The translations under genes were made by a program, and so were the position numbers. The notes under the pieces were generated by a model. It made no database searches. It saw only the letters and a program-made list of their open reading frames with translations, and had not been told where the DNA came from. From the NCBI GenBank assembly GCA_964035575.1, contig OZ037836.1, positions 310,001 to 374,000 on the forward strand: a stretch of DNA of 64,000 bases. Direction: 5' to 3'. This document shows positions 9,331 through 51,563 of the stretch, piece by piece (the first letter of the stretch is position 1; the number at the start of each line of letters is the position of its first letter). The stretch comes from Rhynchopus sp. YZ270_cl-10 (lineage: Eukaryota; Euglenozoa; Diplonemea; Diplonemida; Diplonemidae).

Positions 9331-9758
9331 GTATACTAAAAGATTTTCTAACAAATGTACACAACTGCCCTGTCCCGGGGGCCTCACATGCACACACATT
9401 TGCACTTGGTATCTTCTTTGACCACTTCAGCGGCGTGGCTAATGTCGTTGGTATCGTCCATGAGGCTACCACTACGGCTCTGCACATATTCTGACACAAC
9501 ACTGCTCGATCCGGTGACGTTGATGCTGCTTGTGAATATGGTACATCCTTCCAGGAAGCCTTTCTCAATGTCCGTCGCATTCGTCAACCCAGATAAGTTA
9601 AGTGTTCGCAATGCGCTGCAGTTGTAGAGAAAGGACCTCGTCACATTGTTCCACCCAGAAATATCCAATGTGGTCAATGAGGTGCAGTCTGAGAGAAAGT
9701 TGTCGCCAACCTGCGTCACATTGCTCCACCCAGACAAGTCAAGTGTTCGCAATGCGAT

Positions 9759-10374
9759 ATTAAACTTGAAAAACGTGATCCACCCCCGCAAAAAGAAAAA
9801 CCAGCAAAAGGGAAGGATGGCACCACGGTGTGCCAGAGAGTGGCTTGATCCCATTTGCTGACTTATACCCAACAAAGAAGCGACACCTAAGTGAACAGGG
9901 GCCGTATACCACCGCTGGTGGCCTAGGTTAGTATATAAGCCAGGTCAAGGTCCGCACTCTGGCAGCGTCAAAAGAAATAAACAACAATAAAACCACCAGT
10001 CATTCCAATGGGAGGAACGAATGACTGGCATCTCCTAATTCTCTAAACTGCGGTGAGTGGAACACCCAACTCCAAGATGCAAACCACTGCCGCAGGTTAG
10101 CACCTACAAAAAGCAAAGAAAAGCAAAGAAAAGAAAAGCAAAAGCTGTGCATGGTCGTAAAGTAGGTGCAGGGTCGCTTAAATCCCTGAGGGCACAAAAA
10201 GCCCAGCATACACCTCCTCCAGTTGCTTTGGACCCTCCAGTATCATGTGCCCGGGTTTGCAAAAGTGCAATGCAACCATCCCACGCGTGGCCTTCGTTCA
10301 CTCAAAAAAGAGATTATATCCGGGGACGCCAGGGCAAAAAGGCCGGGGGGCTGCCACCTCACGTTTTTGTCCCC
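9759..10374 (-). mobile_element. Short non-autonomous retroelement (616 bp) mobilised like family A
   Basis: Flanked by a perfect 20-bp target-site duplication, tcaagtgttcgcaatgcgat, at 9739-9758 and 10375-10394. On the minus strand the 5' end is GGGGAC and the 3' end is CAAGTTTAAT, sharing the CAAGTTTA tail with family A. It sits in sense orientation at the same LRR codon position as the family A copies. It has no coding capacity and the body does not resemble family A; an A-rich stretch (AAAAGCAAAG repeats, near 10110 on the plus strand) and a TATATAA-like run (about 9936) are visible. Probably a SINE-like passenger of family A. Confidence 0.85.
10287..10374 (-). ncRNA. Possible HDV-like ribozyme at 5' end of the short retroelement
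   Basis: Minus-strand GGGGAC (first 6 nt) pairs with GTCCCC at 10322-10327 (P1). P3 is GCC/GGC directly before it with loop TTTTTGCCCT, so CC in the loop can pair with GG after P1 (P1.1). P2 is GTGGC/GCCAC (10353-10357 with 10287-10291), P4 a weak CTC/GAG hairpin, and J4/2 contains AACGAAG. The extra nucleotides between P2 and P3 and the weak P4 make this less certain than the A and B examples. Confidence 0.42.
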
Positions 10375-10479
10375 TCAAGTGTTCGCAATGCGATGCAGGA
10401 GGAGAGAAAGTAGTCTCCCAGTTGCGTCACATTGTTCCACCTAGAAATATCCAGTGTGGTCAATGAGGTGCACCTGGAG

Positions 10480-11073
10480 AGTACACAGTACACAGTACAC
10501 AGTACACAGTACACAGTACACAGTACACAGTACACAGTACACAGTACACAGTACACAGTACACAGTACACAGTACACAGTACACAGTACACAGTACACAG
10601 TACACAGTACACAGTACACAGTACACAGTACACAGTACACAGTACACAGTACACAGTACACAGTACACAGTACACAGTACACAGTACACAGTACACAGTA
10701 CACAGTACACAGTACACAGTACACAGTACACAGTACACAGTACACAGTACACAGTACACAGTACACAGTACACAGTACACAGTACACAGTACACAGTACA
10801 CAGTACACAGTACACAGTACACAGTACACAGTACACAGTACACAGTACACAGTACACAGTACACAGTACACAGTACACAGTACACAGTACACAGTACACA
10901 GTACACAGTACACAGTACACAGTACACAGTACACAGTACACAGTACACAGTACACAGTACACAGTACACAGTACACAGTACACAGTACACAGTACACAGT
11001 ACACAGTACACAGTACACAGTACACAGTACACAGTACACAGCACACAGTACACAGTACACAGTACACAGTACA
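10480..11073. repeat. 7-bp satellite (ACACAGT)n, about 85 copies
   Basis: Nearly perfect head-to-tail array of the heptamer over 594 bp, with one visible variant (AGCACAC at about 11040). Seven is not a multiple of three, so all three frames on each strand read the same 7-residue peptide repeat (VHSTQYT on plus, YCVLCTV on minus) without stops. It lies where the N-terminal half of the 9384-10479 LRR gene should be. Confidence 0.97.
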
Positions 11074-11122
11074 AATGGAATAAAGTAATGAGCAGCTGGC
11101 CTCTCAAAAGATGCACAGTGCC

Positions 11123-12124
11123 TCACATGCACACACATTTGCGTTTGGTATCGTCCACGAGGCTACAGTTCCGCACATATTCTGACACAACACTACTCGA
11201 GCCTGAAACGTTGATGTTGATTGTATGTATTTTGCATCCATACAGGAAGTGTAGCCCAATGCGCTGAACAGTGGTCCACCCAGACAAGTCAAGTGTTTTC
11301 AACGCGCTGCAGTTGGAGAGAAAGAACGCTCCCAGATGCGTCACATTGTTCCACCCAGATAAGTCAACGGTTTGCAATGCAACGCAGTTGCAGAGGAAGA
11401 AGTCCCCCGTATGAGTCGCCTTGCTCCACCCAGACAAGTCAAGGGTTCGCAATGTGGTGCAGTAGGAGAGAAAACGAGGCAGTATTTGCGTCACATTGGT
11501 CCACCCTGAAATATCCAGTGTGGTCAATGAGGTGCAGGTGTAGAGGAATAAGTCCACTGTTTGCGTCACATTGCTCCACCCAGCCATGTCAAGGGTATGC
11601 AATGCGACGGAGTCGTAGAGGAAGTAGCGCTCAACCTGCGTCACATTGCTCCACCCAGATAAGTCAACGGTTCGCAATGCGCTGCACTCTTGAAGGAAGC
11701 TGGAGCCTATGTTGGTCACACCTGGCACACCACTGAGATCAAGTGCTTCGAACGTGGCACCCGACAAGAAGTGATTGGGGATATCAGTAACAACCTCCGC
11801 CTGCAGAAACAAATGAACCAGCTTGGGATCTGTCAGACCTTCGAACCTCTCTGCAGTGATGTCGGTCTCACCCAAGTCACGAAGAGCTGCAATGGCGTCG
11901 TACTTCTGCGACTTCGTCTTCGTCAGCACAACTGTGTCCCCAGCACTCAGCTGCGTGATGTCGTCTCCTTCGGCCAGCAGCTTCCCTCCGAAGCTCATGT
12001 CAAAGCCGTCTTCGCACAACTCTGCTGCAGTCGCCACCTTCCGCCGTATGTCCGCAGTTGTATCATCCACACCCACCTCGACTGTGTACTTCTCTCCGTC
12101 AAAGCTCTCCACACATATTTCCAT
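11123..12124 (-). CDS. UBL-LRR protein with CaaX C-terminus (333 aa)
   Basis: Start chosen at MEICVESF (ATG 12122-12124), matching the other members; an upstream in-frame ATG would add an unconserved extension. Residues 1-70 form a ubiquitin-like domain (MEICVESFDGEKYTVEV, FGGKLLAEGD, LSAGDTVVLTK). Residues 71-120 are a helical linker (AIAALRDLGE, LVHLFLQAEVV). Then come about eight 25-residue BspA-like LRRs with consensus LxxLDLSGWxNVTxIGxxFLxxC. The C-terminus KCVCM is a CaaX box with X=Met, which in known systems favours farnesylation and so membrane association. Intact, with no insertion. Function unknown; LRRs suggest protein binding. Confidence 0.85.
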   Translation of the reverse strand: MEICVESFDGEKYTVEVGVDDTTADIRRKVATAAELCEDGFDMSFGGKLLAEGDDITQLSAGDTVVLTKTKSQKYDAIAALRDLGETDITAERFEGLTDPKLVHLFLQAEVVTDIPNHFLSGATFEALDLSGVPGVTNIGSSFLQECSALRTVDLSGWSNVTQVERYFLYDSVALHTLDMAGWSNVTQTVDLFLYTCTSLTTLDISGWTNVTQILPRFLSYCTTLRTLDLSGWSKATHTGDFFLCNCVALQTVDLSGWNNVTHLGAFFLSNCSALKTLDLSGWTTVQRIGLHFLYGCKIHTININVSGSSSVVSEYVRNCSLVDDTKRKCVCM

Positions 12125-13451
12125 GGTTTTGTGTCTCTCTGTTTTGTGCAAGTGTATCCAATTGGGGGTAAGAGTACGCAAGAGACAACAAACAGTTAGG
12201 GAGAGGTCTTTTGCTAATAAAAATGATCATCCAGATGTGGTGAAACGCAATAAACTCCACAACCCCTACAAAGATACTCTGCAAGATATTGGCGACCAAA
12301 AAGGTCTCCTATTTCAAGAAAACCCTCAAAATCCGCCAATATCTTTTGGTGGCCAAGTTATTTAGTGGGAAAGCGGTTCTTGTTGGTACAAAAAGCACAA
12401 GTACAAAAAGGTGCCCCTTGAGTGCACCAGGTGCAGTGTATCTCTCAAGAAAGTCGAACATTCCGCGCCACGCACTAACGGACGCCACCCTAAAATACAC
12501 ATGTTGAGTCGAAGGGAGGCAAAACTATATCAAAGCTTTTTGATAAAAAATGAACGAAGCACAAAAACCAGCGCGTGTGGAAGAAAAAAGAAGAGGCAAA
12601 ATATTATTTCGATTCAAAGTGGTGTTTATGTTTTGGGTACGGTGCGGAGAATAAAATCTGTTCGATAAAAGAAACGCAAGCTTTTTGTTTTATCTTGTTC
12701 AGACAAAAAGCTACTTCCCAACCAATGTGACAAAGAACCACTGCCCTATCAATTACAAGAAAACCCTCAAAATCCGCCAATATTTTTTGGTCGCCAAGTT
12801 TCTTGTCCTCCTGTAAGCTGCTTTAGTTCATATCTTTTTTGTTGCCACTGTGGAACAGTTGTGCAATCTCCACTTTTCACATTTTTTACTCATTTGATTT
12901 TTGTTCTTGGTAAAGTGGCCTCCAAATAAGTAGACTCGAAAACAAAGCCCTCTCGTGACAGTGTACCTTGGTACAATTGACCGGCTGTAGTGGGGTCGAC
13001 ACCGAACCATGCAGTCCTACATGCATTTCGTGGTTTACATCTGATATAAAACAGTGAGGGGAGAGGTCTTTTTTTTTTTTTTTTTTGAAAGCTTCGTTGT
13101 ATTAGTGTGGACACCCGAGGATGTGCTCCACTATGTGTTCCTTTTGATTTTATTATTCCTTCTTTTAAACTTCACACACAACGCTGTTTTGGTTTTTGGG
13201 CGGCACACAAGATGCCAGGTTTTTGACCAAAATATATCCGCTCCGCTTGATCAGATCTCGACCGTTTGTTGCATTGCACGCTTGGAACGTCTTGCTCAGC
13301 ACAGCTCTCCTCTCGCACCAAGTAGTAGTCTGTGCCACGGCGAGCAAGACTGCGCCCCTCTTCTTCTCCGAACTAGCAGACGCAAACAGACATACTGCCA
13401 GAGACCCTCCACCTCGGGGAGGTGCTGCCCTGCCACCAACACACCACGTCG
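12125..13451. other. Intergenic region
   Basis: No supported gene. 12213-12285 is a repeat shared with 42927-42990 and 58520-58585 (around ATGATCATCCAGATGTGG). A segment around CCCTCAAAATCCGCCAATAT occurs twice (12325-12360 and 12760-12805); the first has a partial inverted repeat ATTGGCGACCAAAA...TTTTGGTGGCCAA. 12640-12700 matches 28330, 33510 and 56960. R2 copy at 13056-13150. 13430-13451 begins the 3' flank of the next LRR gene. Confidence 0.65.
13056..13150. repeat. Dispersed intergenic repeat R2, copy 2
   Basis: Same block as 8036-8150, with a 20-nt T run between GAGAGGTC and GAAAGCTTCG. Confidence 0.72.
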
Positions 13452-13708
13452 TCATTGTGCGTGTCTCCGTCGCTTCTGGATTTGCTCGGGGGATTCGTCT
13501 CTGCTTCGTTTCAGACGTGATTCAACTACAAGCTTGCTCAGCTTCTTGCTATTCCTCACTTCATTGGACACAGCACTGCTGCATCCGGAAAGGTAAATGC
13601 TCGTCAACGAAGTGCATTTCGCAGCAAAAAACGTAGTTTTCATGAAAGAATGCGCCTTGATAGACGTCACATTGCTGAGTGGTGATAAATCGAGGGTGGT
13701 TAAGCTCT
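13452..13708 (-). pseudogene. UBL-LRR gene, NLS type: C-terminal part, separated by A2
   Basis: Encodes the last LRR units (SLTTLDLSPLSN, SIYLSGCSS) and the basic tail KRSRDESPEQIQKRRRHAQ with stop. The N-terminal part is at 21487-22316. Element A2 lies between, flanked by a 19-bp duplication tcgagggtggttaagctct at 13690-13708 and 21487-21505. This class has no CaaX; the tail resembles a bipartite nuclear-localisation signal. Confidence 0.88.
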
Positions 13709-13785
13709 TAAACTTGTTGACGTGACCCATCCCCACCTTCTCAGATGAACTGAGAGGTGAGAAAGGCGCCACGTGACCACCTTCG

Positions 13786-16700
13786 TTATCGCGGGGCAAA
13801 CCCGAGACGTCCCTGGGACATGTCGTGGTGCCCTTTCCCGCAACAGACCTGAGGAGACGCCAGCATCGGCAATCCGTCCTTCTTCCTCTTCCGTCCCGCT
13901 TGCACACATGCACCGCAAGCACCCCTCCCGTGGGCCACACAGTTGTGGTGCTTCTGACAGCACTGCTTCATCGACACGTTCCCCGCACCCGCACACTGTC
14001 CGCACATCGAGAAGTTATGCACCTCACATGCCTCACGCGCCTCCACACAGTCACCCAAAATAAGCTCATCACAATGGTGCGTCGCACAACACGCCGTGAT
14101 GGAGATGTTGTTGTGCTCGCAGTCCCCGCATCGCATCTTGGTGTGTATGTCACACACCCGCATGGTCCCCACCTTCCTCCTTACGTCCACACGCACAGCC
14201 GGTGTCTGCCGCCTGCGTGCCTCCTGCCGTCGAGTCTGCTCTGCCGCAACTGCAGCTATCGCAGCTCTCTTACGCACCTCCTCTGCCTGCTTCTGCTCTT
14301 CCTTCGCTTCCTTCCAGCGTTCGCTCTTTGCTGAGCGTTCTTCCGGAGTGGAAGTGTGAGCTACAACCGCGTCGTCACCCCACCTCGCCTTCGTCTTTTC
14401 TTTTTGTCGGGAGAGTGCTCTCCGCGACGTCGCCTTCTCCTGCAACTCCTTCAGGTACCCTTCAACCCCCGCCGCATGCGTCAGCACAGGTCGCACAGAA
14501 TACCCCGTCATGATCCCCGCACCCAGTTCCTGTAAGTGGTGCACCTCCCTCTTCTCCACTCCTTTCCATACGTCCCTTCCATGCGCCATCGTTTTCGCCG
14601 TCCGCATCATGGCACCAAAAGATTCTGCCCTCTTCAACACCGTCTCACCCGGTACGTCCAACCCCGAGAAGATCTCAAAGTCCAGCATGAGCTCGAGCTG
14701 CGTGATGGGGGGCGTTGTGCCATCAGGCCAACGCAATGCAGCGAGCCATGCCTTCAGCGCCCAGAAGTGGTCTTCCGTCCAGCGTGGACTCTTCTTCATG
14801 TGCTTGCTCCCCCACAGTACGTTCTCCAGCGGGTTGTAGCTCTCAAGCACTGCACCCTCCGGAGGATTCCAGCCCCAAGGAAAAAGGGATTGGCCCACCA
14901 CCGCCTGCTTCTTCTTCTTCTGCGAAAACCCATGTTCGACGTCGTACTTCTGCCTTGCCAGCGCGATGTTGACCAGCATCAGTTGCACACGTCGCACAGT
15001 CTGCTCTCTCTCCGCAACACTCAGCTCCTGCAAGAATATCGTCGGCACCAGGCCAAAGTCCAAGAAGCACGGGGGTGCGTCTTTGAGCAAAACCCGGAGT
15101 TTTCCGATGTCCTCTCCACGAATTTCGTCCCACTGCGGGCACCACCACCAAGCGTGTCTCCGGTCCTCTATCGCCTCACCACAGTATCGGCACAACGAAG
15201 TCTCCACCTCCTTGTTCCTCAGCAGCTGCACCCCCACCAACTGAGAGCCCGACAAGGCTCCGCGTATCGCGCCCGCCAGGTATCTGTCGGTCGTGCGGTC
15301 CTTCCACACTGCGTTCGTCGCCTGGCGATCCACACCTCCCTCAATGCCCTGCATTGACGGCCTCGTCGTCACTGTCAGGCGGTACGCGTGTGCACGGATG
15401 CCCTCTCTCAGCTCATGCAGCCATTTGCCCTTGTCCCACAGACGAACGTGCACCCTCAACCCGATGTGTGTGGTCCAGAAGTCGAAGCTGCTCCACCGCC
15501 ATCCGTATCGCTCCAGGTCGTCCCACAACAACTCTATCACACCCTTCTTGTGCACTTCAGTTACCCTTGGGTTGGCAACCCCAGGGTTCTCACGCCGGAG
15601 ACGTGCCAGCTCTGAAGCCCTGTCACGCCGCCTCACCTCCCGCTCCGCTCTTCGGTCATGTGCCAGCCTCCACACTTCTTCTGCTTCTCTCCGCATGCCG
15701 TCATCTTCTGTCAGTCGGAGAAAGGCCGCCATCCTCCTCTGCACAATCTCCGCTGGCGCATCAATCCCAACCGGAGATAACACATGCCACACAATGTTCA
15801 GCGTGCGCTGCTTCCTGCCCTGCCCCCAGACTGCCAGTGCTGCCCCTTGCCTCAGCGTCTCTATCGTCTGCTTCGAGAAGTCTGTCACTTCGCACCCATG
15901 CAACGCTGCCATCATTGGTCCCCTTGCGCCAATAAGTGCCTTCTCAGTGAAGGATAATGGCACACTCGAAACCCTCGTAAATACACGGTGCGCAGTAACC
16001 GCACGCTCACGCGCGATGGGCCCGAAGTTCCCCTTTCCAGCCAAAATGTCTGCTCCAACCGCCCCGAACTGCTTCTTGTCGGGGAAGAACCCGTCGCCAA
16101 GTCCAAACTTCGTCTTTGTTCCCTCCTTCGAGGTAAACCCTACGCACTTCTCTGCCTTGACCTCCATGTCCGCAGCAGTGATAAACTCCTTCGTCACCCT
16201 CGCAGCACCATGCACCTCCGCTTCCGTGTTCGCCACAGCATACACGTCGTCAGCGTACCCCATGGCGATTGCTCCGGTCCTTCTCGTCACTGCAGATCCC
16301 CACACCGCCATCAGCGCGTTCAACAGCACGACAGAAAGCGGGCATCCTTGCAGGATACCATTTGTCGTACGGAAAGCGCCTCCCACACCTACGTCTCCCA
16401 ACTTGAAGCGGCGTTCCATGGCAGTGTACGCCGCCCTCAGTGGTCCAAGAATGCGCCAGTGCGCGCCCCACTCCTCCGCCAGCGATAGCACAATCTCATG
16501 AGGTACACGATCGAAACATTTGGCGTAGTCAATCGTGAAGCCCCATACCTGGTCTGTGTCGTCACCCGACAGCACCGCCTTCTCCAGTTTGAGCGACAAA
16601 TGCCAGTACAGGTGTGCAGTGCTGTGTCCTGCTCTGAAGCCGTGCTGTTGCTCACCAATCCAGCTTTCCTGCCACTTTATCAGCCTTCGCAACCTCGCTG

Positions 16701-18552
16701 CCGCCCACAGTCTGTACACACACGAAGTAATCGTGATTGGTCGCTGCTTCAGCGGAGTGTCGTCTTCCCCTTTGGGGATGAGCGCAATGAGTGCTCTCAT
16801 CAAAGAAGGCGGCCACTCTCCCGTACACTCAATCGCATCAAACACATCTGCCAGCCTGTCGAGCAGCACCAGAGGAAGCGCCTTCAGCTCTGCCATGCGC
16901 CAACCCTCCACCCCAGCAGAAGTTTGTGTCTTCATCCTCCCCAGAGTTTGCTGCAACTCCTTCCCCGTCAGCCTGTCCATCTGCATCGCTTGTCCCTTGC
17001 CTGCGATGTCTTCTGCAAACTTCTCCCTGAACGCACCCCAGTCGGGCTCTGGCTTTTCCGCATATCGGCGAAGAATCGGCATCCACGCCTCATGCAGGAG
17101 GGTGTCCATCTCCTCAGCGTTGGCGGTGAACTTCCCATCCTCGTTCTTCAGGGCAGTCATCTTCCTGTACTGCTCGTCCTTGCAGTATTTGAAGATCGCC
17201 TTGGGAGCATTGTGCCATGCATCCCGTAGGCGCTGCCGCCAGTCCTCCAGTCGCTTCCGCTTCACTCGGTCCGCAAGCGTTGACACCTTCACTCGCACGG
17301 CTCTGCACAGATCCACCAAAGCCTCCTCGCTAGGCATATCCTGTTGCAGTGAGTCGTCGTCCAGCAGAACACGCAGTTCCTTCCGCGCCTTGCTCCAACA
17401 ATTGCACACGTCATGTGGCGGCACACCACCGTTGCTCCTCACGTACCACAGTCGACATTCTTCCAGCCTGCCCACGTTCTTCGTCAGCCTTCTCTGGCTC
17501 ACCGTCAGAGCGTCCCCTTCCTTGCTCTGCTTCGCAGTCCGGTGCTTCGGTGTGGGGTCGAACGTTCTGCCTCTACCGCAATACGCCTTCGTCGGGCCCT
17601 CAATCTCGCCTTCGCACGCCTGCAGCAAGAAGTCCTCTGCCCACTTGTTCCACTGGATCCACCTATCCTGAGGGTGTTGAAGCGCCCCCCACTGCAGCTC
17701 CTTGTTCGCAAACGCCTTTTGTGCCGTCTTCACACCCTGTCCACACTTCTCCAAAGGGAACTGCTTCGGCAGAGTGTACGCGAGCACGATCTGCCTGTAC
17801 GCACCTACATCCAGCGCTATCTCTACCGGTCTGTGCTGCGGGAGCCCAGAGTCGTGGACAACCTTCACAGACGACAGCCCTGTGCACGCAGCTCGGTTCA
17901 GCAGAACGTAATCGAGCCTCTTGCGGATCTCCTTGCCCTCCTTCACTGAGAAGTAGGTGTTCTCCGGGGTCGTCCCAAGCACCCTTGCGTGCTCTTCGGC
18001 AGTGTCCTTCCACCATCCTGTGTCTAGCGTAGCAGCCAGCACACCTGATTTCCCGGGACCTGCGTTGAAGTCCCCACCAATCACCCCAGGAATGTCACCA
18101 AGCTCTGCAGCAGCCTCCATCACCTCGCCAAGTATTTTCTCCCTAGCCTCCGGGTCCGCCGACGGCGCGTAGACGGAGGTCACGTCGATCCACTCGTTGC
18201 CTTTGCCGTACGCCACCTTCGCCTTCACCCATCGCGTTGAGTCCCAGAGGTTCTTTTCCAAGGTTGAGGAGGGCGGGCTCGTGAGCACAGGTATTCCCTC
18301 TTGCACCAGAATCGCAACACCACCAGATTTCGCTTCTTCGGCCGACCTCCATTCCGGCAACTCCTTACCCCACACCACCTGCCAACCCTGCTTGCGGTAC
18401 TCGATGGAGAGGCGCTTCTGCGTCGTCACGGTGCACTTTGTCTCTTGTACCAGAACAACTTGAGCATCCTCCGCAACCTTCAGCAGAGAACTCCCGCCTG
18501 TCTGCAGCGCCGTCACATTGCTGCACACTATCTTTAGTGGGGCAAGGCCCAC
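13786..18552 (-). CDS. Family A ORF2: APE endonuclease-reverse transcriptase, copy A2 (about 1588 aa)
   Basis: Complete replicase. APE-type endonuclease at about 5-250 with N12, E37, Y128, D161-F-N163, D214 and H240 in the expected order. RT at about 590-860 with motif A TIDYAKCFD (D675) and GYADDVY (766-769). A LINE-type zinc knuckle follows (CRYC...H...C, in a WWWC context). The last 125 residues (about 1464-1588) hold three copies of C-x2-H-x4-C-x2-C alternating with CC-x2-HH pairs (CCATHH, CCQKHH, CCGKGHH), a Cys/His array I do not recognise from known families. The conserved domain begins without ATG; the first candidate is GTG at 18550-18552. The frame is open to about 18639, overlapping ORF1 in -1, so frameshifting or non-AUG reinitiation is likely. 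Confidence 0.93.
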   Translation of the reverse strand: MGLAPLKIVCSNVTALQTGGSSLLKVAEDAQVVLVQETKCTVTTQKRLSIEYRKQGWQVVWGKELPEWRSAEEAKSGGVAILVQEGIPVLTSPPSSTLEKNLWDSTRWVKAKVAYGKGNEWIDVTSVYAPSADPEAREKILGEVMEAAAELGDIPGVIGGDFNAGPGKSGVLAATLDTGWWKDTAEEHARVLGTTPENTYFSVKEGKEIRKRLDYVLLNRAACTGLSSVKVVHDSGLPQHRPVEIALDVGAYRQIVLAYTLPKQFPLEKCGQGVKTAQKAFANKELQWGALQHPQDRWIQWNKWAEDFLLQACEGEIEGPTKAYCGRGRTFDPTPKHRTAKQSKEGDALTVSQRRLTKNVGRLEECRLWYVRSNGGVPPHDVCNCWSKARKELRVLLDDDSLQQDMPSEEALVDLCRAVRVKVSTLADRVKRKRLEDWRQRLRDAWHNAPKAIFKYCKDEQYRKMTALKNEDGKFTANAEEMDTLLHEAWMPILRRYAEKPEPDWGAFREKFAEDIAGKGQAMQMDRLTGKELQQTLGRMKTQTSAGVEGWRMAELKALPLVLLDRLADVFDAIECTGEWPPSLMRALIALIPKGEDDTPLKQRPITITSCVYRLWAAARLRRLIKWQESWIGEQQHGFRAGHSTAHLYWHLSLKLEKAVLSGDDTDQVWGFTIDYAKCFDRVPHEIVLSLAEEWGAHWRILGPLRAAYTAMERRFKLGDVGVGGAFRTTNGILQGCPLSVVLLNALMAVWGSAVTRRTGAIAMGYADDVYAVANTEAEVHGAARVTKEFITAADMEVKAEKCVGFTSKEGTKTKFGLGDGFFPDKKQFGAVGADILAGKGNFGPIARERAVTAHRVFTRVSSVPLSFTEKALIGARGPMMAALHGCEVTDFSKQTIETLRQGAALAVWGQGRKQRTLNIVWHVLSPVGIDAPAEIVQRRMAAFLRLTEDDGMRREAEEVWRLAHDRRAEREVRRRDRASELARLRRENPGVANPRVTEVHKKGVIELLWDDLERYGWRWSSFDFWTTHIGLRVHVRLWDKGKWLHELREGIRAHAYRLTVTTRPSMQGIEGGVDRQATNAVWKDRTTDRYLAGAIRGALSGSQLVGVQLLRNKEVETSLCRYCGEAIEDRRHAWWWCPQWDEIRGEDIGKLRVLLKDAPPCFLDFGLVPTIFLQELSVAEREQTVRRVQLMLVNIALARQKYDVEHGFSQKKKKQAVVGQSLFPWGWNPPEGAVLESYNPLENVLWGSKHMKKSPRWTEDHFWALKAWLAALRWPDGTTPPITQLELMLDFEIFSGLDVPGETVLKRAESFGAMMRTAKTMAHGRDVWKGVEKREVHHLQELGAGIMTGYSVRPVLTHAAGVEGYLKELQEKATSRRALSRQKEKTKARWGDDAVVAHTSTPEERSAKSERWKEAKEEQKQAEEVRKRAAIAAVAAEQTRRQEARRRQTPAVRVDVRRKVGTMRVCDIHTKMRCGDCEHNNISITACCATHHCDELILGDCVEAREACEVHNFSMCGQCAGAGNVSMKQCCQKHHNCVAHGRGACGACVQAGRKRKKDGLPMLASPQVCCGKGHHDMSQGRLGFAPR

Positions 18553-18560
18553 GGTCGTGA

Positions 18561-21446: not shown

Positions 21447-21486
21447 TGTTTATATTCTTTCTTTTTGTGTACGTTGTGTGTATCCC
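21358..21486 (-). ncRNA. HDV-like self-cleaving ribozyme at 5' end of A2
   Basis: P1 GGGATAC (21480-21486) with GTATCCC (21394-21400); P2 GTCCA (21414-21418) with TGGAC (21358-21362); L3 TCCACGC; J1.1/4 GGGCAAC; P4 perfect hairpin 21369-21387; J4/2 GGCCAAA. P2 is one pair shorter than in A1/A3 because the last base differs. The G1 position is fixed independently by the target-site duplication beginning at 21487. Confidence 0.8.
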
Positions 21487-31734: not shown

Positions 31735-31766
<32 letters not shown>

Positions 31767-33346: not shown

Positions 33347-33356
33347 CAACAAACAC

Positions 33357-33422: not shown

Positions 33423-33660
33423 ATATTTCTACACCTGGACATGAGAAATTTGGTAACAACATGGGGATTTATTTCTGATTCAAAGGGGTGTTTTACGTAT
33501 AGGGTACGGGGCGGAGAATAAAATATGTTCGATAAAAGAAACGCGATCTTTTTTGTTTTATCCTAATGATATAAATAATGGGACGAGAACCAGCACGCAC
33601 AGAACGTTGCTCTCTCTACGTAAAAGCTAAGATATATCACAACTGCGCTGTCCCGGGTAC

Positions 33661-33976: not shown

Positions 33977-34053
33977 TAAACTTGTTGACGTGACCCATCC
34001 CCACCTTCTCAGATGAACTGAGAGGTGAGAAAGGCGCCACGTGACCACCTTCG

Positions 34054-37000: not shown

Positions 37001-38820
37001 GTGATTGGTCGCTGCTTCAGCGGAGTGTCGTCTTCCCCTTTGGGGATGAGCGCAATGAGTGCTCTCATCAAAGAAGGCGGCCACTCTCCCGTACACTCAA
37101 TCGCATCAAACACATCTGCCAGCCTGTCGAGCAGCACCAGAGGAAGCGCCTTCAGCTCTGCCATGCGCCAACCCTCCACCCCAGCAGAAGTTTGTGTCTT
37201 CATCCTCCCCAGAGTTTGCTGCAACTCCTTCCCCGTCAGCCTGTCCATCTGCATCGCTTGTCCCTTGCCTGCGATGTCTTCTGCAAACTTCTCCCTGAAC
37301 GCACCCCAGTCGGGCTCTGGCTTTTCCGCATATCGGCGAAGAATCGGCATCCACGCCTCATGCAGGAGGGTGTCCATCTCCTCAGCGTTGGCGGTGAACT
37401 TCCCATCCTCGTTCTTCAGGGCAGTCATCTTCCTGTACTGCTCGTCCTTGCAGTATTTGAAGATCGCCTTGGGAGCATTGTGCCATGCATCCCGTAGGCG
37501 CTGCCGCCAGTCCTCCAGTCGCTTCCGCTTCACTCGGTCCGCAAGCGTTGACACCTTCACTCGCACGGCTCTGCACAGATCCACCAAAGCCTCCTCGCTA
37601 GGCATATCCTGTTGCAGTGAGTCGTCGTCCAGCAGAACACGCAGTTCCTTCCGCGCCTTGCTCCAACAATTGCACACGTCATGTGGCGGCACACCACCGT
37701 TGCTCCTCACGTACCACAGTCGACATTCTTCCAGCCTGCCCACGTTCTTCGTCAGCCTTCTCTGGCTCACCGTCAGAGCGTCCCCTTCCTTGCTCTGCTT
37801 CGCAGTCCGGTGCTTCGGTGTGGGGTCGAACGTTCTGCCTCTACCGCAATACGCCTTCGTCGGGCCCTCAATCTCGCCTTCGCACGCCTGCAGCAAGAAG
37901 TCCTCTGCCCACTTGTTCCACTGGATCCACCTATCCTGAGGGTGTTGAAGCGCCCCCCACTGCAGCTCCTTGTTCGCAAACGCCTTTTGTGCCGTCTTCA
38001 CACCCTGTCCACACTTCTCCAAAGGGAACTGCTTCGGCAGAGTGTACGCGAGCACGATCTGCCTGTACGCACCTACATCCAGCGCTATCTCTACCGGTCT
38101 GTGCTGCGGGAGCCCAGAGTCGTGGACAACCTTCACAGACGACAGCCCTGTGCACGCAGCTCGGTTCAGCAGAACGTAATCGAGCCTCTTGCGGATCTCC
38201 TTGCCCTCCTTCACTGAGAAGTAGGTGTTCTCCGGGGTCGTCCCAAGCACCCTTGCGTGCTCTTCGGCAGTGTCCTTCCACCATCCTGTGTCTAGCGTAG
38301 CAGCCAGCACACCTGATTTCCCGGGACCTGCGTTGAAATCCCCACCAATCACCCCAGGAATGTCACCAAGCTCTGCAGCAGCCTCCATCACCTCGCCAAG
38401 TATTTTCTCCCTAGCCTCCGGGTCCGCCGACGGCGCGTAGACGGAGGTCACGTCGATCCACTCGTTGCCTTTGCCGTACGCCACCTTCGCCTTCACCCAT
38501 CGCGTTGAGTCCCAGAGGTTCTTTTCCAAGGTTGAGGAGGGCGGGCTCGTGAGCACAGGTATTCCCTCTTGCACCAGAATCGCAACACCACCAGATTTCG
38601 CTTCTTCGGCCGACCTCCATTCCGGCAACTCCTTACCCCACACCACCTGCCAACCCTGCTCGCGGTACTCGATGGAGAGGCGCTTCTGCGTCGTCACGGT
38701 GCACTTTGTCTCTTGTACCAGAACAACTTGAGCATCCTCCGCAACCTTCAGCAGAGAACTCCCGCCTGTCTGCAGCGCCGTCACATTGCTGCACACTATC
38801 TTTAGTGGGGCAAGGCCCAC
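34054..38820 (-). CDS. Family A ORF2: APE endonuclease-reverse transcriptase, copy A3
   Basis: Same length and domain order as the A2 copy (APE endonuclease, RT with YADD, CCHC knuckle, three-unit Cys/His array). Only scattered substitutions separate it from A2, for example Arg for His in AKTMARGRD, so both inserted recently. The frame again lacks an ATG before the endonuclease domain (GTG at 38818-38820) and overlaps ORF1 in the -1 frame. Confidence 0.93.
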   Translation of the reverse strand: MGLAPLKIVCSNVTALQTGGSSLLKVAEDAQVVLVQETKCTVTTQKRLSIEYREQGWQVVWGKELPEWRSAEEAKSGGVAILVQEGIPVLTSPPSSTLEKNLWDSTRWVKAKVAYGKGNEWIDVTSVYAPSADPEAREKILGEVMEAAAELGDIPGVIGGDFNAGPGKSGVLAATLDTGWWKDTAEEHARVLGTTPENTYFSVKEGKEIRKRLDYVLLNRAACTGLSSVKVVHDSGLPQHRPVEIALDVGAYRQIVLAYTLPKQFPLEKCGQGVKTAQKAFANKELQWGALQHPQDRWIQWNKWAEDFLLQACEGEIEGPTKAYCGRGRTFDPTPKHRTAKQSKEGDALTVSQRRLTKNVGRLEECRLWYVRSNGGVPPHDVCNCWSKARKELRVLLDDDSLQQDMPSEEALVDLCRAVRVKVSTLADRVKRKRLEDWRQRLRDAWHNAPKAIFKYCKDEQYRKMTALKNEDGKFTANAEEMDTLLHEAWMPILRRYAEKPEPDWGAFREKFAEDIAGKGQAMQMDRLTGKELQQTLGRMKTQTSAGVEGWRMAELKALPLVLLDRLADVFDAIECTGEWPPSLMRALIALIPKGEDDTPLKQRPITITSCVYRLWAAARLRRLIKWQESWIGEQQHGFRAGHSTAHLYWHLSLKLEKAVLSGDDTDQVWGFTIDYAKCFDRVPHEIVLSLAEEWGAHWRILGPLRAAYTAMERRFKLGDVGVGGAFRTTNGILQGCPLSVVLLNALMAVWGSAVTRRTGAIAMGYADDVYAVANTEAEVHGAARVTKEFITAADMEVKAEKCVGFTSKEGTKTKFGLGDGFFPDKKQFGAVGADILAGKGNFGPIARERAVTAHRVFTRVSSVPLSFTEKALIGARGPMMAALHGCEVTDFSKQTIETLRQGAALAVWGQGRKQRTLNIVWHVLSPVGIDAPAEIVQRRMAAFLRLTEDDGMRREAEEVWRLAHDRRAEREVRRRDRASELARLRRENPGVANPRVTEVHKKGVIELLWDDLERYGWRWSSFDFWTTHIGLRVHVRLWDKGKWLHELREGIRAHAYRLTVTTRPSMQGIEGGVDRQATNAVWKDRTTDRYLAGAIRGALSGSQLVGVQLLRNKEVETSLCRYCGEAIEDRRHAWWWCPQWDEIRGEDIGKLRVLLKDAPPCFLDFGLVPTIFLQELSVAEREQTVRRVQLMLVNIALARQKYDVEHGFSQKKKKQAVVGQSLFPWGWNPPEGAVLESYNPLENVLWGSKHMKKSPRWTEDHFWALKAWLAALRWPDGTTPPITQLELMLDFEIFSGLDVPGETVLKRAESFGAMMRTAKTMARGRDVWKGVEKREVHHLQELGAGIMTGYSVRPVLTHAAGVEGYLKELQEKATSRRALSRQKEKTKARWGDDAVVAHTSTPEERSAKSERWKEAKEEQKQAEEVRKRAAIAAVAAEQTRRQEARRRQTPAVRVDVRRKVGTMRVCDIHTKMRCGDCEHNNIPITACCATHHCDELILGDCVEAREACEVHNFSMCGQCAGAGNVSMKQCCQKHHNCVAHGRGACGACVQAGRKRKKDGLPMLASPQVCCGKGHHDTSQGRLGFAPR

Positions 38821-38828
38821 GGTCGTGA

Positions 38829-41693
38829 TTAATACGACCTTTCTCGGTTATTGTCCGTGTCGCGGGGGCGGCTGTTCTCGTCCGTCGTCGTATCTTTCTT
38901 CTTCTCCTCACCGCCACGATCTTGAGCATCCCTGGCCTTGTCCTTGGCCTCGCGAGCTGCCTTCTTCAGCGCCTCGTTCTCCTCCGTGAGCCGCTTGCTC
39001 TCCGCTGCCAGCTGCACGTTCTGGTCCTTGCACTGCTGCACCGTCTCCTTCATCTCAGCACATTCTGCTCTGAGCTGTTCCATGTCGAGAGGCTGCGGCG
39101 GTTGCGCGACTGGTGCCGACTGCTGCGGCTGTCCCATCATCCGCTTCTGTGCCTCCAACATCTCCTTCTGCTGCTCCATGACGCCCTTCATCATCTCCCG
39201 CAATTCCTTCATCTCCTTCTTCATCATCTCTATCTCGTCCTGCGCTGCTGATGAAGCTGCGGGAGGTGCCGGAGCCGCCGGTGCCCCTGTTGCAGGGTGG
39301 GGTCGAGCTGCAGGTGGTGCGTATCCCCTCGCCTTAGCCGCCCACGTGCCAGCGCCGCTCTCTGCTGCTCCTTGCCTCGGTACTGGGAACTGCGCCAGAG
39401 GGAAACCCCACGGATTCGCACCCACCTTCTGCACACGACGCCCTTCCTTCACCGCACACACCGTCAACACCAATCCACCCACCTCCAGCACCCCTTCTGT
39501 GCTCGGGCACGGCACATCCGACGTAACCGTCCACTTGTGCCCTCGCGACAGCACCTTCACCGTCCAGCTCGCCTCCCTCGCCAGCCCCTCACACAACAGC
39601 TGGACCGACGTGTTCGCCGGAATTCCCCCAATCTCGTACCTGTGTCCCTGCACGACGACGTCCTCCTGCACAAGAAGCCTCTTCGCAGCCTCCAAGTCCC
39701 CCTTCATCACCCGCACCGCGTAGCCCCCTTCCCCTACGGCGAGTCCGCGCACGCTATCCTCCATGTTCTCCTCAACAAGGTCCAGCCGTGCCAGAGCAGA
39801 CTCCAGCGGTTCCGCCTTCCACAACAACCCACAGTCCCCGTACTCCTTTGCCTGGAAGAGGTGCCGCACAAACACCCCTTCCCGTCCGCTTCTCCTCAGC
39901 ATGGCGCACACCATGTCCTCCGTCACGTCCACAGACATCTCCATCCATCCTCCTCTCTCCAAGCCGCGTCCACACCGCACCCCCTGCAACCCGTACCACC
40001 GACGCATGCGTTGCTCTCCCTTTGTGCGCCCCTCCCCCTGGAGCAACATCGTTCTGCCCATCAGCGTAATCAGCTTGCTCGAGAACGTGCTCTCCACCGG
40101 CTTCACCACGTCGTCCAAGTTAGTTGTCATGGACGACAGCCACACTTCTTCCACCTTTGCTCCCCGCTCCGTCTTCACCGCCACCTTCGCCTTCTTCGTG
40201 CGCGCTGCACCCGTACACTTCGAACGGGACACAATCACCATCTGCGGAAGTTGGTGCAGCAACTGTAACCCCTGCAGAAGTTCGCTCGCCTTCCACGCAA
40301 CTGCCGCCACCTGCGTCACCCCTTCCACATTGCTGGGCACTGCATCCCACACCGGTATTTTCCATCCCTGGGGCGCCAGGTTCAGTGCATCCTCCGCTGC
40401 GCTCTGGGTCACCGCCGTCGCCTTCTTCTTCCCCTTCACAGCTGTAGCCGGTACGTGCAGTTGCGGTTGTCCCACTGCGCACAGAAGTTCCTCCCCCACC
40501 TTCAACCCTGCCGATTCCACAGCACCGTAGTGTACCCCCTCGAACCCCAGGACTACGTCAGACTCCGTGAAGGTGAGGTTAGCCTTCTCCGGAGTTCCTT
40601 CTGCCAGCTGCCCGTCGGACTGCCCGTCGATCAGCGTAGCCCGTAGCGCGTTCTCCGGTCCAACGTCAAGCACAACAATGCGGACCTTCATCACCTTGGC
40701 GATCGCATGGAGACACAAATGGTCCCCCCATGTCCCCAGCTGCGCCATGCCTGCCAGGTATGCATCAATGCACCCCTCGTCCACAAATGGGCTGTAGTGT
40801 GCCTTCTGCTCCTTCATCACCTCAACTGCGAGCCTGCGGAAGCCTGCGTGACCATTCGGGGACCGCTCCACAGACCACGCCACCGACCGGAACAGACAGT
40901 CCCCCTTGCCCCCACATTCCTCCCATCGCAACCCCCATCTTTCCAGGTGTCCCTTGACACCTGGCTGCACGGCAGCTGCCAGCGTCTCCGTCCTGCATCC
41001 CCTTGCGGCGTACCCCCCTCCTGCAACCAGCTGGGCGTTGCTCTCTGCCTCCTTCATCCCCTTCCCCGCCTTCGCGCAGTGCTGCAGCGATACCCTTATC
41101 CCCCTCTTCTTCAACTCGCCCAGCAGCGCCTTCACCTTCTCCAGCCTCGGCTTCAGCAACGACGAGTCGCAGGCGTGCCCCTCAGCCACCTGCCTCCAGA
41201 CCACCAAGTGCGTGACCCACACGCGCGCGTGGGTGCCCTTCGGGTACGACCCGTCGGCCACCCCTTGAAGCCCGAGCAGGATGCCCTCGTACGCGGCTTC
41301 TGCCTTGGTGATGTTTGCCAGGCGGCGGGTTACTTCCCAGTGCGTTCCTGGTTCCTCCTCCGTCGCATCACGCGCCAGCGCACACAGCCCCGTCGTGTCC
41401 CGCACCTTCTCGCCCGTCACTACTCCGATGAAGACATCGGGATCCTTCCTCTCCTCCCCTGCACTGCGCTTCATGCCGCCTGCCCCCGGGTAGGCGGGCT
41501 GCCGTAGCCCCTCAGTCCAGTGCGCCTGCTCCGCCGCCGCCGTCACCTCGTCACTGCAATAGCAGTTCCACGACCTGCAGCACACAGGCGCCGGCGGGTG
41601 TGGCGTCCACTTGGCCGATCCGTGTGACGGATCGTTGCCCGGGATACTCCGCGTGGAGGCTGGACGTGACTTCGACACCATGTACGAAAACAT
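38829..41693 (-). CDS. Family A ORF1 with OTU protease domain, copy A3 (954 aa)
   Basis: Nearly identical to A1 ORF1, lacking one Val of A1. RNase H-like region, OTU domain with GDCLF and GVHYGAV, RRM-like middle and coiled-coil C-terminus all present. ATG at 41691-41693, 3 nt after the stop that ends the upstream host LRR frame. Stop TAA at 38829-38831. Confidence 0.92.
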   Translation of the reverse strand: MFSYMVSKSRPASTRSIPGNDPSHGSAKWTPHPPAPVCCRSWNCYCSDEVTAAAEQAHWTEGLRQPAYPGAGGMKRSAGEERKDPDVFIGVVTGEKVRDTTGLCALARDATEEEPGTHWEVTRRLANITKAEAAYEGILLGLQGVADGSYPKGTHARVWVTHLVVWRQVAEGHACDSSLLKPRLEKVKALLGELKKRGIRVSLQHCAKAGKGMKEAESNAQLVAGGGYAARGCRTETLAAAVQPGVKGHLERWGLRWEECGGKGDCLFRSVAWSVERSPNGHAGFRRLAVEVMKEQKAHYSPFVDEGCIDAYLAGMAQLGTWGDHLCLHAIAKVMKVRIVVLDVGPENALRATLIDGQSDGQLAEGTPEKANLTFTESDVVLGFEGVHYGAVESAGLKVGEELLCAVGQPQLHVPATAVKGKKKATAVTQSAAEDALNLAPQGWKIPVWDAVPSNVEGVTQVAAVAWKASELLQGLQLLHQLPQMVIVSRSKCTGAARTKKAKVAVKTERGAKVEEVWLSSMTTNLDDVVKPVESTFSSKLITLMGRTMLLQGEGRTKGEQRMRRWYGLQGVRCGRGLERGGWMEMSVDVTEDMVCAMLRRSGREGVFVRHLFQAKEYGDCGLLWKAEPLESALARLDLVEENMEDSVRGLAVGEGGYAVRVMKGDLEAAKRLLVQEDVVVQGHRYEIGGIPANTSVQLLCEGLAREASWTVKVLSRGHKWTVTSDVPCPSTEGVLEVGGLVLTVCAVKEGRRVQKVGANPWGFPLAQFPVPRQGAAESGAGTWAAKARGYAPPAARPHPATGAPAAPAPPAASSAAQDEIEMMKKEMKELREMMKGVMEQQKEMLEAQKRMMGQPQQSAPVAQPPQPLDMEQLRAECAEMKETVQQCKDQNVQLAAESKRLTEENEALKKAAREAKDKARDAQDRGGEEKKKDTTTDENSRPRDTDNNRERSY

Positions 41694-41733
41694 TGTTTAT
41701 ATTCTTTCTTTTTGTGTACGTTGTGTGTATCCC
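41604..41733 (-). ncRNA. HDV-like self-cleaving ribozyme at 5' end of A3
   Basis: Same fold as in A1: P1 GGGATAC/GTATCCC, P2 CGTCCA/TGGACG (TGGACG at 41604-41609), L3 TCCACGC, J1.1/4 GGGCAAC, P4 hairpin 41616-41634, J4/2 GGCCAAG. First base 41733 is the element boundary set by the target-site duplication. Confidence 0.8.
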
Positions 41734-43624: not shown

Positions 43625-43877
43625 TCATTGTGCGTGTCTCTGTCGTTTGCGGGCTTGCTCGGGGGATTCGTCTCTGCTGCGTTTCAAACGTGCTTCAACC
43701 ACAAGATGCTTCAGATACCTGTTATTCCTTACTGCGTCGGACACAGCACTGCTGCAGCCGGTAAGGTAAATACTCGTCAACGAAGTGCAGCTGTTAGCAA
43801 AACCCGAACCTAACATCATACAGGTTTCTACGTACTGAACCTTGTTGAGTGGCGAGAGATCCAGGGTGGTTAAAGAT
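43625..43877 (-). pseudogene. UBL-LRR gene, NLS type: C-terminal part, separated by A4
   Basis: Encodes the end of the LRR region (SLTSIYLTGCSS) and the tail KRSRDESPEQARKRQRHAQ. The rest of the gene is at 45800-46498 and 55360-55575. The order and sequence match the intact gene 59171-60301. Confidence 0.88.
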
Positions 43878-45799
43878 GTTTAAACTTGTTGACGTGACCC
43901 ATCCCCACCTTCTCAGATGAACTGAGAGGTGAGAAAGGCGCCACGTGACCACCTTCGTTATCGCGGGGCAAACCCGAGACGCCCCTGGGACGTGTCGTGG
44001 TGCCCTTTCCCGCAACAGGCCTGAGGAGACGCCAGCATCGGCAATCCGTCCTTCTTCCTCTTCCGTCCCGCCTGCACACATGCACCGCAAGCACCCCTCC
44101 CGTGGGCCACACAGTTGTGGTGCTTCTGACAGCACTGCTTCATCGACACGTTCCCCGCACCCGCACACTGTCCGCACATCGAGAAGTTATGCACCTCACA
44201 CGCCTCACGCGCCTCCACACAGTCACCCAAAATAAGCTCATCACAATGGTGCGTCGCACAACACGCCGTGATGGAGATGTTGTTGTGCTCGCAGTCCCCG
44301 CATCGCATCTTGGTGTGTATGTCACACACCCGCATGGCCCCCACCTTCCTCCTTACGTCCACACGCACAGCCGGTGTCTGCCGCCTGCGTGCCTCCTGTC
44401 GTCGAATCTGCTCTGCCGCAACTGCAGCTATCGCAGCTCTACTACGCACCTCCTCTGCCTGCTTCTGCTCTTCCTTCGCTTCCTTCCAGCGTTCGTTCTT
44501 TGCTGAGCGTTCTTCCGGAGTGGAAGTATGAGCCACATCCGCGTCGTCACCCCACCTCGCCTTCGTCTTTTCCTTTTGTCGGGAGAGTGCTCTCCGCGAC
44601 GTCGCCTTCTCCTGCAACTCCTTCAGGTATCCTTCAACCCCCGCCGCATGCGTCAGCACAGGTCGCACAGAATACCCCGTCATGATCCCCGCACCCAGTT
44701 CCTGTAAGTGGTGCACCTCCCTCTTCTCCACTCCTTTCCATACGTCCCTTCCATGCGCCATAGTTTTCGCCGTCCGCATCATGGCACCAAAAGATTCGGC
44801 CCTCTTCAACACCGTCTCACCCGGTACGTCCAACCCCGAGAAGATCTCAAAGTCCAGCATGAGCTCGAGCTGCGTGATGGGGGGCGTTGTGCCATCAGGC
44901 CAACGCAATGCAGCGAGCCATGCCTTCAGCGCCCAGAAGTGGTCTTCCGTCCAGCGTGGACTCTTCTTCATGTACTTGCTCCCCCACAGTACGTTCTCCA
45001 GCGGGTTGTAGCTCTCAAGCACTGCACCCTCCTGAGGATTCCAGCCCCAAGGAAAAAGGGATTGGCCCACCACCGCTTGCTTCTTCTTCTTCTGCGAAAA
45101 CCCATGTTCCACGTCGTACTTCTGCCTTGCCAGCGCGATGCTGACCAGCATCAGTTGCACACGACGCACCGTCTGCTCTCTCTCCGCAACACTCAGCTCC
45201 TGCAAGAATATCGTCGGCACCAGGCCAAAGTCCAAGAAGCACGGGGGTGCGTCTTTGAGCAAAACCCGGAGTTTTCCGATGTCCTCTCCACGAATTTCGT
45301 CCCACTGCGGGCACCACCACCAAGCGTGTCTCCGGTCCTCTATCGCCTCACCACAGTATCGGCACAACGAAGTCTCCACCTCCTTGTTCCTCAGCAGCTG
45401 CACCCCCACCAACTGAGAGCCCGACAAGGCTCCGCGTATCGCGCCCGCCAGGTATCTGTCGGTCGTGCGGTCCTTCCACACTGCGTTCGTCGCCTGGCGA
45501 TCCACACCTCCCTCAATGCCCTGCATCGACGGCCTCGTCGTCACTGTCAGGCGGTACGCGTGTGCACGGATGCCCTCTCTCAGCTCATGCAGCCATTTGC
45601 CCTTGTCCCACAGACGAACGTGCACCCTCAACCCGATGTGTGTGGTCCAGAAGTCGAAGCTGCTCCACCGCCATCCGTATCGCTCCAGGTCGTCCCACAA
45701 CAACTCTATCACACCCTTCTTGTGCACTTCAGTAACCCTTGGGTTGGCAACCCCAGGGTTCTCGCGCCGGAGACGTGCCAGATCTGAAGCCCTGTCACG
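43878..45799 (-). mobile_element. Family A retrotransposon, 5'-truncated copy A4 (1922 bp)
   Basis: Carries only the 3' UTR and last ~614 codons of ORF2. Flanked by a 17-bp duplication, ccagggtggttaaagat, at 43861-43877 and 45800-45816. At the truncated 5' end two bases (CC on plus) are shared between element and target, so the junction is ambiguous by 2 bp. The 3' end has about two extra nucleotides (GT on the plus strand) before TTAAACTTG compared with A2/A3. Typical incomplete target-primed reverse transcription. Confidence 0.95.
43958..45799 (-). pseudogene. Family A ORF2 C-terminal fragment (copy A4)
   Basis: Open frame covering the region after the RT domain: CCHC knuckle, linker and the three-unit Cys/His array. 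No endonuclease or RT, so inactive. Substitutions such as QEGAVLESYN and SKYMKKSP group it with A1 rather than A2/A3. Confidence 0.92.
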
Positions 45800-46498
45800 C
45801 CAGGGTGGTTAAAGATTTGCAGTCGTCAAGAAAGTATCTGCCAATCTGCGTAACGTTCTTGAGTGGTGTCAGATCCAGGGTGGTTAAAGAATTGCAGGCG
45901 TGAAGAAAGTAATCGCCAATCATCGTAACGTTGTTGAGTGGCGAGAGATCCAGGGTGGTTAAAGAGCTGCATTCGTTAAGAAAGCGACTGCCAATCACCG
46001 TCACGTGGTTGAGTGGGGTCAGATCCAGGGTTGTTAAAGAGTTGCAGCCGGAAAGAAAGAAACTCTCAATCCTCGTAACGTTGAGTGGTAGAGCCAGGGT
46101 GGTTAAAGAGTTGCAGTGGGAGAGAAAGCCAGAGCCAATCGCCGTCACGTGGTTGAGTGGTGTCAGATCCAGGGTGGTTAAAGAGCTGCAGGCGAAAAGA
46201 AAGTGACTGCCAATCACCGTCACATTGCTCAACCCAGAGAGGTCAATAGTTGTTAACGAGGTGCCCTTGAGGAAGTTGTCTCCAATCTGTGTCACAATGG
46301 ACACAGCACTGAGATCAAGGCGCGTTACCCATGCCTTCCTCAAGAACTCATCAGGAATGACAGTCGCAACCTCCGCCTGCAGAAGCAAACACGCCACCTC
46401 AGGATCCTCCACATCCTCCAACCTCTCTGGTGTGATGTTTCTCTCACCCAACGCATGAAGTGCTACTATGGCTTCGTATTTCTGCGTTTTTGTGAGGT
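45800..46498 (-). pseudogene. UBL-LRR gene, NLS type: middle part, between insertions A4 and B
   Basis: Contains the linker (KYEAIVALHALGERNITPERLEDVEDPE) and about eight LRR units (LDLTPLNHVT type). The UBL start is at 55360-55575 and the C-terminus at 43625-43877. The open frame that appears to start at 46547 begins inside element B and is not the real N-terminus. Confidence 0.9.
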
Positions 46499-51551: not shown

Positions 51552-51563
51552 CGCACCACACCG

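Follow-up and report, generated by a model that had tools for sequence, protein, structure and literature searches.

Why should several retrotransposons in one stretch of a diplonemid genome interrupt the same codon of the same kind of gene? The question arises from 64,000 nucleotides (nt) of Rhynchopus sp. YZ270_cl-10 (contig OZ037836.1, here C4; C4:310001-374000, hereafter the window, in whose numbering features are given unless a contig is named), where leucine-rich repeat (LRR) coding sequences are interrupted by four copies of a long interspersed nuclear element (LINE), A1 to A4, and by a short element of about 616 bp. The original prediction was that these belong to one retrotransposon family that inserts at a fixed codon of the LRRs. 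Searches of the genome (152.4 Mb in 126 contigs) indicate that family A, a divergent relative (A'), a partner resembling a short interspersed nuclear element (SINE) and a second LINE family (B) are very probably site-specific retrotransposons without long terminal repeats (non-LTR retrotransposons) whose niche is a single family of genes encoding a ubiquitin-like (UBL) domain and LRRs (UBL-LRR genes).

Insertion sites in the window and across the genome

All of the window elements read on the minus strand. Full-length A2 (13708..21486) lies within an LRR unit, and its junctions, read at both ends, reveal an 18-nt target duplication (GAGCTTAACCACCCTCGA, at 13690-13707 and 21487-21504). Junctions likewise define duplications around full-length A3 (33976..41733; 17 nt, GCATTGCAAGTCCTTGA), 5'-truncated A4 (43880..45799; CTTTAACCACCCTGG) and the SINE-like element (9757..10374; CGCATTGCGAACACTTGA), which shares the LRR phase of family A. 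The fifth insertion, A1 (1..6831), has its 5' end at 6831 and its 3' end to the left of the window, at C4:309071; its 5' flank (TTAGCCAACCTGG) is LRR sequence at the same phase and does not match its 3' flank (L027/L058), and because the two flanks differ A1 lacks a clean duplication. The junctions confirm that all five insertions occupy LRR sites in sense orientation at one phase and that their 5' junctions coincide within 1 nt, after GG or GA of the Leu-Asp codons; target duplications, which had been proposed at all five sites, hold for A2, A3, A4 and the short element and fail for A1. Family B is represented by one full-length copy (46498..55359; 19-nt duplication, CCTCACAAAAACGCAGAAA), which interrupts a UBL-LRR gene at the end of its ubiquitin-like domain.

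Copies of family A across the genome were drawn from 40 rows matching a 0.8-kb 3' query and from 35 exact matches to the 3' tail. A readable 3' junction was available for 37 copies, 32 matching the 0.8-kb query and five short and truncated; 27 of the 37 (27 of the 32; 25 of the first 30, plus both L084 and L085) lie in LRRs, in sense and at one phase. The short 5'-truncated copies (L081, L082, L083, L086, and L087) contribute none of these, and the stretches examined around the five long off-target copies (L005, L011, L014, L022, and L028) had no LRR motif in either orientation. Mapped genome-wide, most copies of family A are thus found in LRRs at a single phase, as had been proposed, and not outside LRR genes or scattered over the phases of the repeat. 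Both ends were available for 28 of the 32 longer copies, and 23 of these have exact target duplications (17 nt in nine, 18 nt in 13, 19 nt in one); 22 of the 23 are distinct and therefore represent separate insertions. The top strand is cut at CTGG|AT or CTGGA|T (also TTGA|C and TCGA|C), in the Asp codon of the L-x-x-L-D of a BspA-type LRR unit or 1 nt beside it. The four A' copies (L089-L092) all sit at the LRR phase of family A, as judged by their 3' flanks.

The short element follows the same pattern. Its 42 rows correspond to 38 copies. Of the 35 examined, some of them at a single end, 29 are at the LRR phase and six are elsewhere (L069, L075, L079, L080, L175, and L176). Duplications of 15-20 nt (18 nt in 20 copies) were recovered in 24 of the 26 copies tested, 22 of them distinct; the remaining two (L063 and L096) yielded no duplication, yet both flanks of each are LRR sequence at the expected phase. 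One off-target copy, L080 (C4:532075-532905), is in antisense orientation within the ubiquitin-like region of a target-family gene.

Family B uses a different position of the same genes. Among 46 junctions found through exact 3' tails, 36 (the window copy, 19 of 20 and 16 of 25) fall where the ubiquitin-like domain ends, and of nine 5' rows the window's and seven others were read, all eight being at this site. All seven pairs of ends carry 19-nt duplications, six of them distinct, and the cut separates the Lys codon from the Tyr codon in LTKT..K|Y. On-target insertions of A, the SINE and B all read in gene sense.

Status on or off target was assigned by eye from flanking sequence. A mechanical recount returned 27/37 for A, missing L002 (ITTLDL) and including L014 through a chance frame; 26/33 for the SINE, missing L098; and 27/45 for B, where the motif was too strict for eight rows (L109-L114, L138, and L146) reading ELHALG or ELRALG. 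Reading by eye the rows that were missed or miscounted yields the counts given above. L120, counted off target for B, may be a decayed target gene. Excluded rows were L060 (a 5'-end fragment), L059 (a partial match) and L088 (decayed, no 3' end found) for A; partial SINE matches at C4:1595880, C21:653375, and C102:72589; and a 74% match to the B 5' end at C3:1260369.

The coincidence of positions is well beyond random expectation, as had been argued from the five window insertions. Were phase random, the matched on-target sites would all share 3 of the 75 phases with a probability of about 1e-24 for A (18 sites) and about 1e-27 for the SINE (20 sites), and placement of 27 of 37 A junctions in LRRs has a P of about 1e-14 even if 16% of the genome were LRR sequence. 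That share is the 95% upper bound from 0 of 17 stretches: 20 contigs were chosen, three were too short, and the 17 one-kb stretches used, each at a fixed coordinate on every sixth contig, held no LRR array and one isolated motif match (L133). Direct counts are far lower. Patterns for four LRR subfamilies (three or fewer mismatches) matched 557, 349, 256, and 1034 places, and their plain sum of 2196, in which the sets may overlap, amounts at 75 nt per unit to about 165 kb, or about 0.11% of the genome, as a lower bound. The pattern for the B site in the ubiquitin-like domain, at the same stringency, matched 137 places, and reversed control patterns for the four subfamilies and the B site matched none genome-wide.

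The genes themselves have an N-terminal ubiquitin-like domain followed by 25-residue BspA-type LRRs (FLxxCxxLxxLD). Three uninterrupted members, all on the minus strand, occur in the window. Pfam scores for the ubiquitin-like domain straddle the cut-off (25.4) in two of them: the gene at 11123..12181 scores 26.1, and the gene at 61742..63070, with the domain at residues 35-102 followed by BspA-type LRRs, scores 23.1, slightly below it. In the third (59171..60301), Pfam scored the LRRs only and the UBL assignment is by sequence likeness; it presents the B site at LTNTQK|Y and the A site in its FLxxCxxLxxLD units. The target genes scanned gave Pfam matches to models for ubiquitin and for BspA-type LRRs, and none to an RHS model.

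Architecture and relationships of the elements

These elements correspond to site-specific APE-type non-LTR retrotransposons in that an APE-like endonuclease and a reverse transcriptase are encoded in one open reading frame (ORF) and most copies occupy one sequence position with target duplications. The LINE of family A has two ORFs: ORF1 specifies an OTU domain, and ORF2 the endonuclease and reverse transcriptase. In A2, ORF1 (18561..21446, minus strand; 961 residues) has a Pfam match to an OTU cysteine-protease-like domain (262-346), and ORF2 (13786..18552, minus strand; 1588 residues) has Pfam matches to an APE-type endonuclease (28-227) and a reverse transcriptase (592-809); among solved structures ORF2 matches L1 ORF2p and R2 proteins, and its C-terminal segment reads as Cys/His-rich from the sequence only. 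Family B has the same layout, and its ORF2 is 30% identical to that of A across nearly the whole length. The window copy encodes ORF2 at 46566..51551 (minus strand; 1661 residues as listed; endonuclease 106-314, reverse transcriptase 684-900, by Pfam) and an ORF1 open frame at 51564..55397 (minus strand; 1277 residues as listed; OTU domain 84-198, by Pfam), the listed GTG start of which is upstream of the 5' end of the element (55359), so the true start must lie downstream. The ORF1 products of A and B have a second stretch in common besides the OTU domain. PF03372 and PF00078 score above their cut-offs in both ORF2 products, and the residues that we take to be the APE active site (N, QE, Y, GDFN, D, and H) are common to A and B. 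Neither ORF2 has a Pfam RNase H match up to an E value of 10; some reverse transcriptase relatives of A carry PF00075.

OTU domains are also present in some distant reverse transcriptase relatives (P0202, Prorocentrum P0219, and Symbiodinium P0226). An OTU-type domain thus occurs in ORF1 of both LINE families and a ubiquitin-like domain in their target genes, and one may speculate that the former acts on the ubiquitin-like target proteins.

Family A copies have two types of 5' end (L031-L036 and L037-L058), with about 80% identity in the first 0.5 kb; at their 3' ends the copies of both types are 96-100% alike, and both types use the LRR site. A' is a third, divergent relative, with four copies at 67-68% DNA identity to the A 3' query. 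The short element is uniform (27 rows span the whole 608-base query at 97-100% identity), and its 3' end (GTGGTGCCATCC ... GGGGTGG(G/A)TCACGT ... CAAGTTTAA) resembles those of A' and A. The 3' stem arms and tail are common to all three, and the base of a long hairpin is found in A and A'. We read the short element as a SINE-like partner and not as an internal deletion of A: the site attributed to it as a member of the retrotransposon family stands, and its 3' end marks it as a partner of that family. The SINE gave no Rfam match up to an E value of 1, and the window gave none at gathering scores.

A homologue search with the reverse transcriptase region of A retrieved 106 proteins, and one with the first 500 residues of ORF2 retrieved two, one being the query itself; most of the named relatives come from Diplonema papillatum. 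A midpoint-rooted tree was built from 92 of 108 sequences, those spanning about 250 or more query residues; its rows are homologues found by search, chiefly from Diplonema and unnamed sources, and R1 and Tx1 reference rows are absent. A is sister to P0123 (support 0.998) and B groups with P0142 and P0156 (support 1.0); P0142, nearly identical to B over the reverse transcriptase, is probably from the host genome itself. The B clade sits in a six-row group with D. papillatum P0173 and P0174 (support 0.934), and A and B join only in a 12-row clade (support 0.81) that also contains D. papillatum P0186. Diplonema elements thus separate the two lineages. Unless elements moved between species, A and B split before the divergence of the host and Diplonema, and, barring such transfer, they either targeted the UBL-LRR family anciently or reached it separately. 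It is likely that this gene family is the landing ground of retrotransposons in the genome, a protein-coding counterpart of ribosomal DNA used by at least two LINE lineages at two codons, with a SINE on one of them.

Target recognition and alternative explanations

In the proposed mechanism, the endonuclease of A ORF2 would read conserved LRR DNA, namely CTGCA at the Cys codon of FLxxCxxLxxLD together with the LxxLD codons that follow. To judge from the 3' junctions, it would nick the antisense strand just downstream of CTGCA, beside the Cys codon; the element RNA, held by the reverse transcriptase through its 3' end (the hairpin and the CAAGTTTAA tail), may then be reverse transcribed from the nick. 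A sense-strand cut 17-18 nt farther downstream, within the Asp codon or beside it, would leave the duplications of 17-19 nt displayed by the junctions. The similar 3' end and shared site suggest that the SINE is mobilized by the machinery of A or A', and an equivalent process where the ubiquitin-like domain ends (K|Y) would give the 19-nt duplications of B. Insertions are presumably tolerable owing to the many redundant copies of the gene. An address set by base pairing between the RNA tail (TTTAA) and the target site (CTTTAACC) was also considered; the idea was abandoned because the sequence in other target subfamilies is CATTGACC.

Evidence for sequence recognition comes from both classes of site. 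Across the 38 on-target sites whose ends match, conservation is seen at CTGCA, 24-20 nt ahead of the top-strand cut, at TT 14-13 nt ahead of it and at T.GA beside it. At nine two-ended off-target sites of A and the SINE, TGCAC is found at the nick more often than in random stretches or in the sites' own flanks (P about 3e-4; for shorter motifs, 3e-4 to 8e-4 with GCAC and 0.03 with TGCA), and this look-alike points to recognition of sequence.

Several observations weigh against site-specific recognition as set out here. Conservation of the on-target sites must partly reflect coding constraint on the LRRs. The off-target sites had already been inspected before the TGCAC test, and a matrix of the whole site gave mixed results: 0.06%, 0.9%, 1.5%, 6%, and 10% of background scored as high as the off-target A sites, and off-target SINE sites, whose ends are ambiguous by 1-3 nt, were not separated (35-90% of background as high). 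For both reasons the TGCAC result is supportive, not final. Specificity is strong but not absolute, with 10/37 A, 6/35 SINE, and 10/46 B copies off target, so the fixed codon of the original prediction holds for most insertions and not for all. All five short A copies are off target, compared with 5/32 longer ones (Fisher P 6e-4, for a post hoc split; L086 and L087 have decayed tails); poor sites might yield aborted insertions. In addition, the isolated SINE piece folded differently, without the long hairpin of A and A', the last 24 nt of A and the SINE are identical at only 12/24 positions in an ungapped comparison, and AlphaFold, given an alignment of two rows, produced no usable model of the A endonuclease (mean predicted local distance difference test score 43.8).

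A shared phase could also be inherited, if one or a few ancestral insertions had been multiplied by tandem duplication and gene conversion. The LRR genes are indeed repeated in clusters, and 5 of 28 two-ended A copies (L004, L008, L010, L017, and L027, which is A1) have flanks without a matching duplication. For two of the five the cause is visible at C96:892800-909000 (L010, L017, L040, and L041), where an unmatched element has at its 5' end the flank that its neighbour has at its 3' end; this is the pattern expected of unequal exchange, so exchange between neighbouring elements does occur. Multiplication of a single insertion is nevertheless rejected, because the duplications are distinct in 22 of 23 cases for A and 22 of 24 for the SINE, over several LRR subfamilies and many contigs, and because A and the SINE, of largely different sequence, share one phase; we consider inheritance very improbable as the source of the pattern. 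Loosely targeted or random insertion, with selection retaining only hits in expendable genes, deserves still less credence. The gene family is large and looks redundant, as that account would have it, but selection would hardly set position within 1-2 nt of a 75-nt unit or fix orientation, and B occupies a different single position of the same genes; selection alone is rejected on the single phase.

A further possibility, which we rate as rather unlikely though of more weight than either of these, is that the target is a short motif (CTGCAC plus a loosely conserved stretch) in which LRRs are merely the richest sequences, with chromatin or transcription perhaps adding to the preference. The TGCAC-like sequence kept at off-target sites favours it; six bases, however, would be common genome-wide and would not bring 27 of 37 junctions into repeats for which the count was 2196 units, so a longer recognition sequence or another tether is needed. 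The chief difference between this possibility and site-specific recognition of the UBL-LRR genes is the extent of the site that is recognized.

Known systems and other features of the window

Most known site-specific LINEs target RNA genes, telomeres, or simple repeats. Elements of the ingi clade have a 5' signature of 76-79 bp, and their RT protein carries an RNase H domain. The nearest precedent is provided by the trypanosome pairs ingi/RIME (T. brucei) and L1Tc/NARTc (T. cruzi) with RHS, a protein multigene family that has a hot spot for ingi and RIME in T. brucei (PMC7563717). In the ingi clade, 12-bp duplications and a conserved motif recognized by the element endonuclease are described (PMC3820030), and its specificity is termed relative (PMC7563717; PMC3820030). 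The suggestion that a LINE homing to the coding repeats of a protein multigene family would be new was therefore too strong. The trypanosome systems, as described there, resemble the present one in having a euglenozoan host, an autonomous LINE with a short partner, a hot spot in a protein multigene family, a duplication of fixed length and a conserved motif beside the insertion. They differ in that the target here is a tandem 75-nt coding repeat, the duplications are 17-19 nt (A), mostly 18 nt (SINE), and 19 nt (B) instead of the 12 bp described there, the LINEs have two ORFs with an OTU domain in ORF1 and may lack an RNase H domain, for which ORF2 gave no Pfam match, and the same genes are entered at another codon by a second LINE lineage.

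Among other target-specific LINEs (R1, R2, the Tx1 clade, R8/R9, Keno, and Utopia), the passages listing targets name rRNA, tRNA, and snRNA genes, spliced-leader exons, microsatellites, telomeric repeats, and transposons, with no protein gene family among them (PMC5035012; PMC4640811). As described there, these elements share with ours a fixed site in a multicopy gene, and R2 and R8/R9, on different sites of one gene array, parallel A and B. The closest named reverse transcriptase relatives are LINEs of D. papillatum (NCBI annotations; about 40-47% over most of the region), with which B groups in the tree; the main text of a paper on that species contains neither 'leucine-rich' nor 'LRR' (PMC10161547). 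No report of LINEs targeting LRR genes was found among the article titles and abstract openings listed, in a search covering mostly the open literature.

We regard as real and new this form of site-specific LINE targeting, in which a protein-coding repeat serves as address and two lineages occupy separate codons within a single gene family. DNA encoding a protein repeat here serves as an address read within 1-2 nt by two LINE lineages and a SINE. The system offers a natural series of endonucleases with differing specificities for coding DNA, a way to ask how a LINE gains a new address, and a chance to test whether serving as retrotransposon sinks is part of the reason that expanded LRR and RHS-like families persist.

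Between the intact LRR gene at 11123..12181 and the LRR fragment bearing the SINE, the window contains about 590 bp of a near-perfect 7-base tandem repeat (10480-11073; TGTACTG-like). A pair of repeats of about 960 bp, 96% identical, is found at 26713-27676 and 29777-30734, the second copy extending into an HSP70 open frame (30429-32273). Three features mark the host as a euglenozoan, probably a diplonemid: the named reverse transcriptase relatives of A, this HSP70 and a spliced-leader core. Among the 120 matches listed of 7990, the HSP70 is 76% identical to that of D. papillatum, 74% to Perkinsela, and 73% to Bodo saltans, with further entries at 80-85% and one at 99% that probably comes from the host genome itself. 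A 20-base spliced-leader core, which we take to be typical of Euglenozoa, was found at 736 places in the genome with one mismatch or fewer (none for the reversed control); among the matches listed, one is exact and the rest have one mismatch, and they are often a few hundred bases apart.

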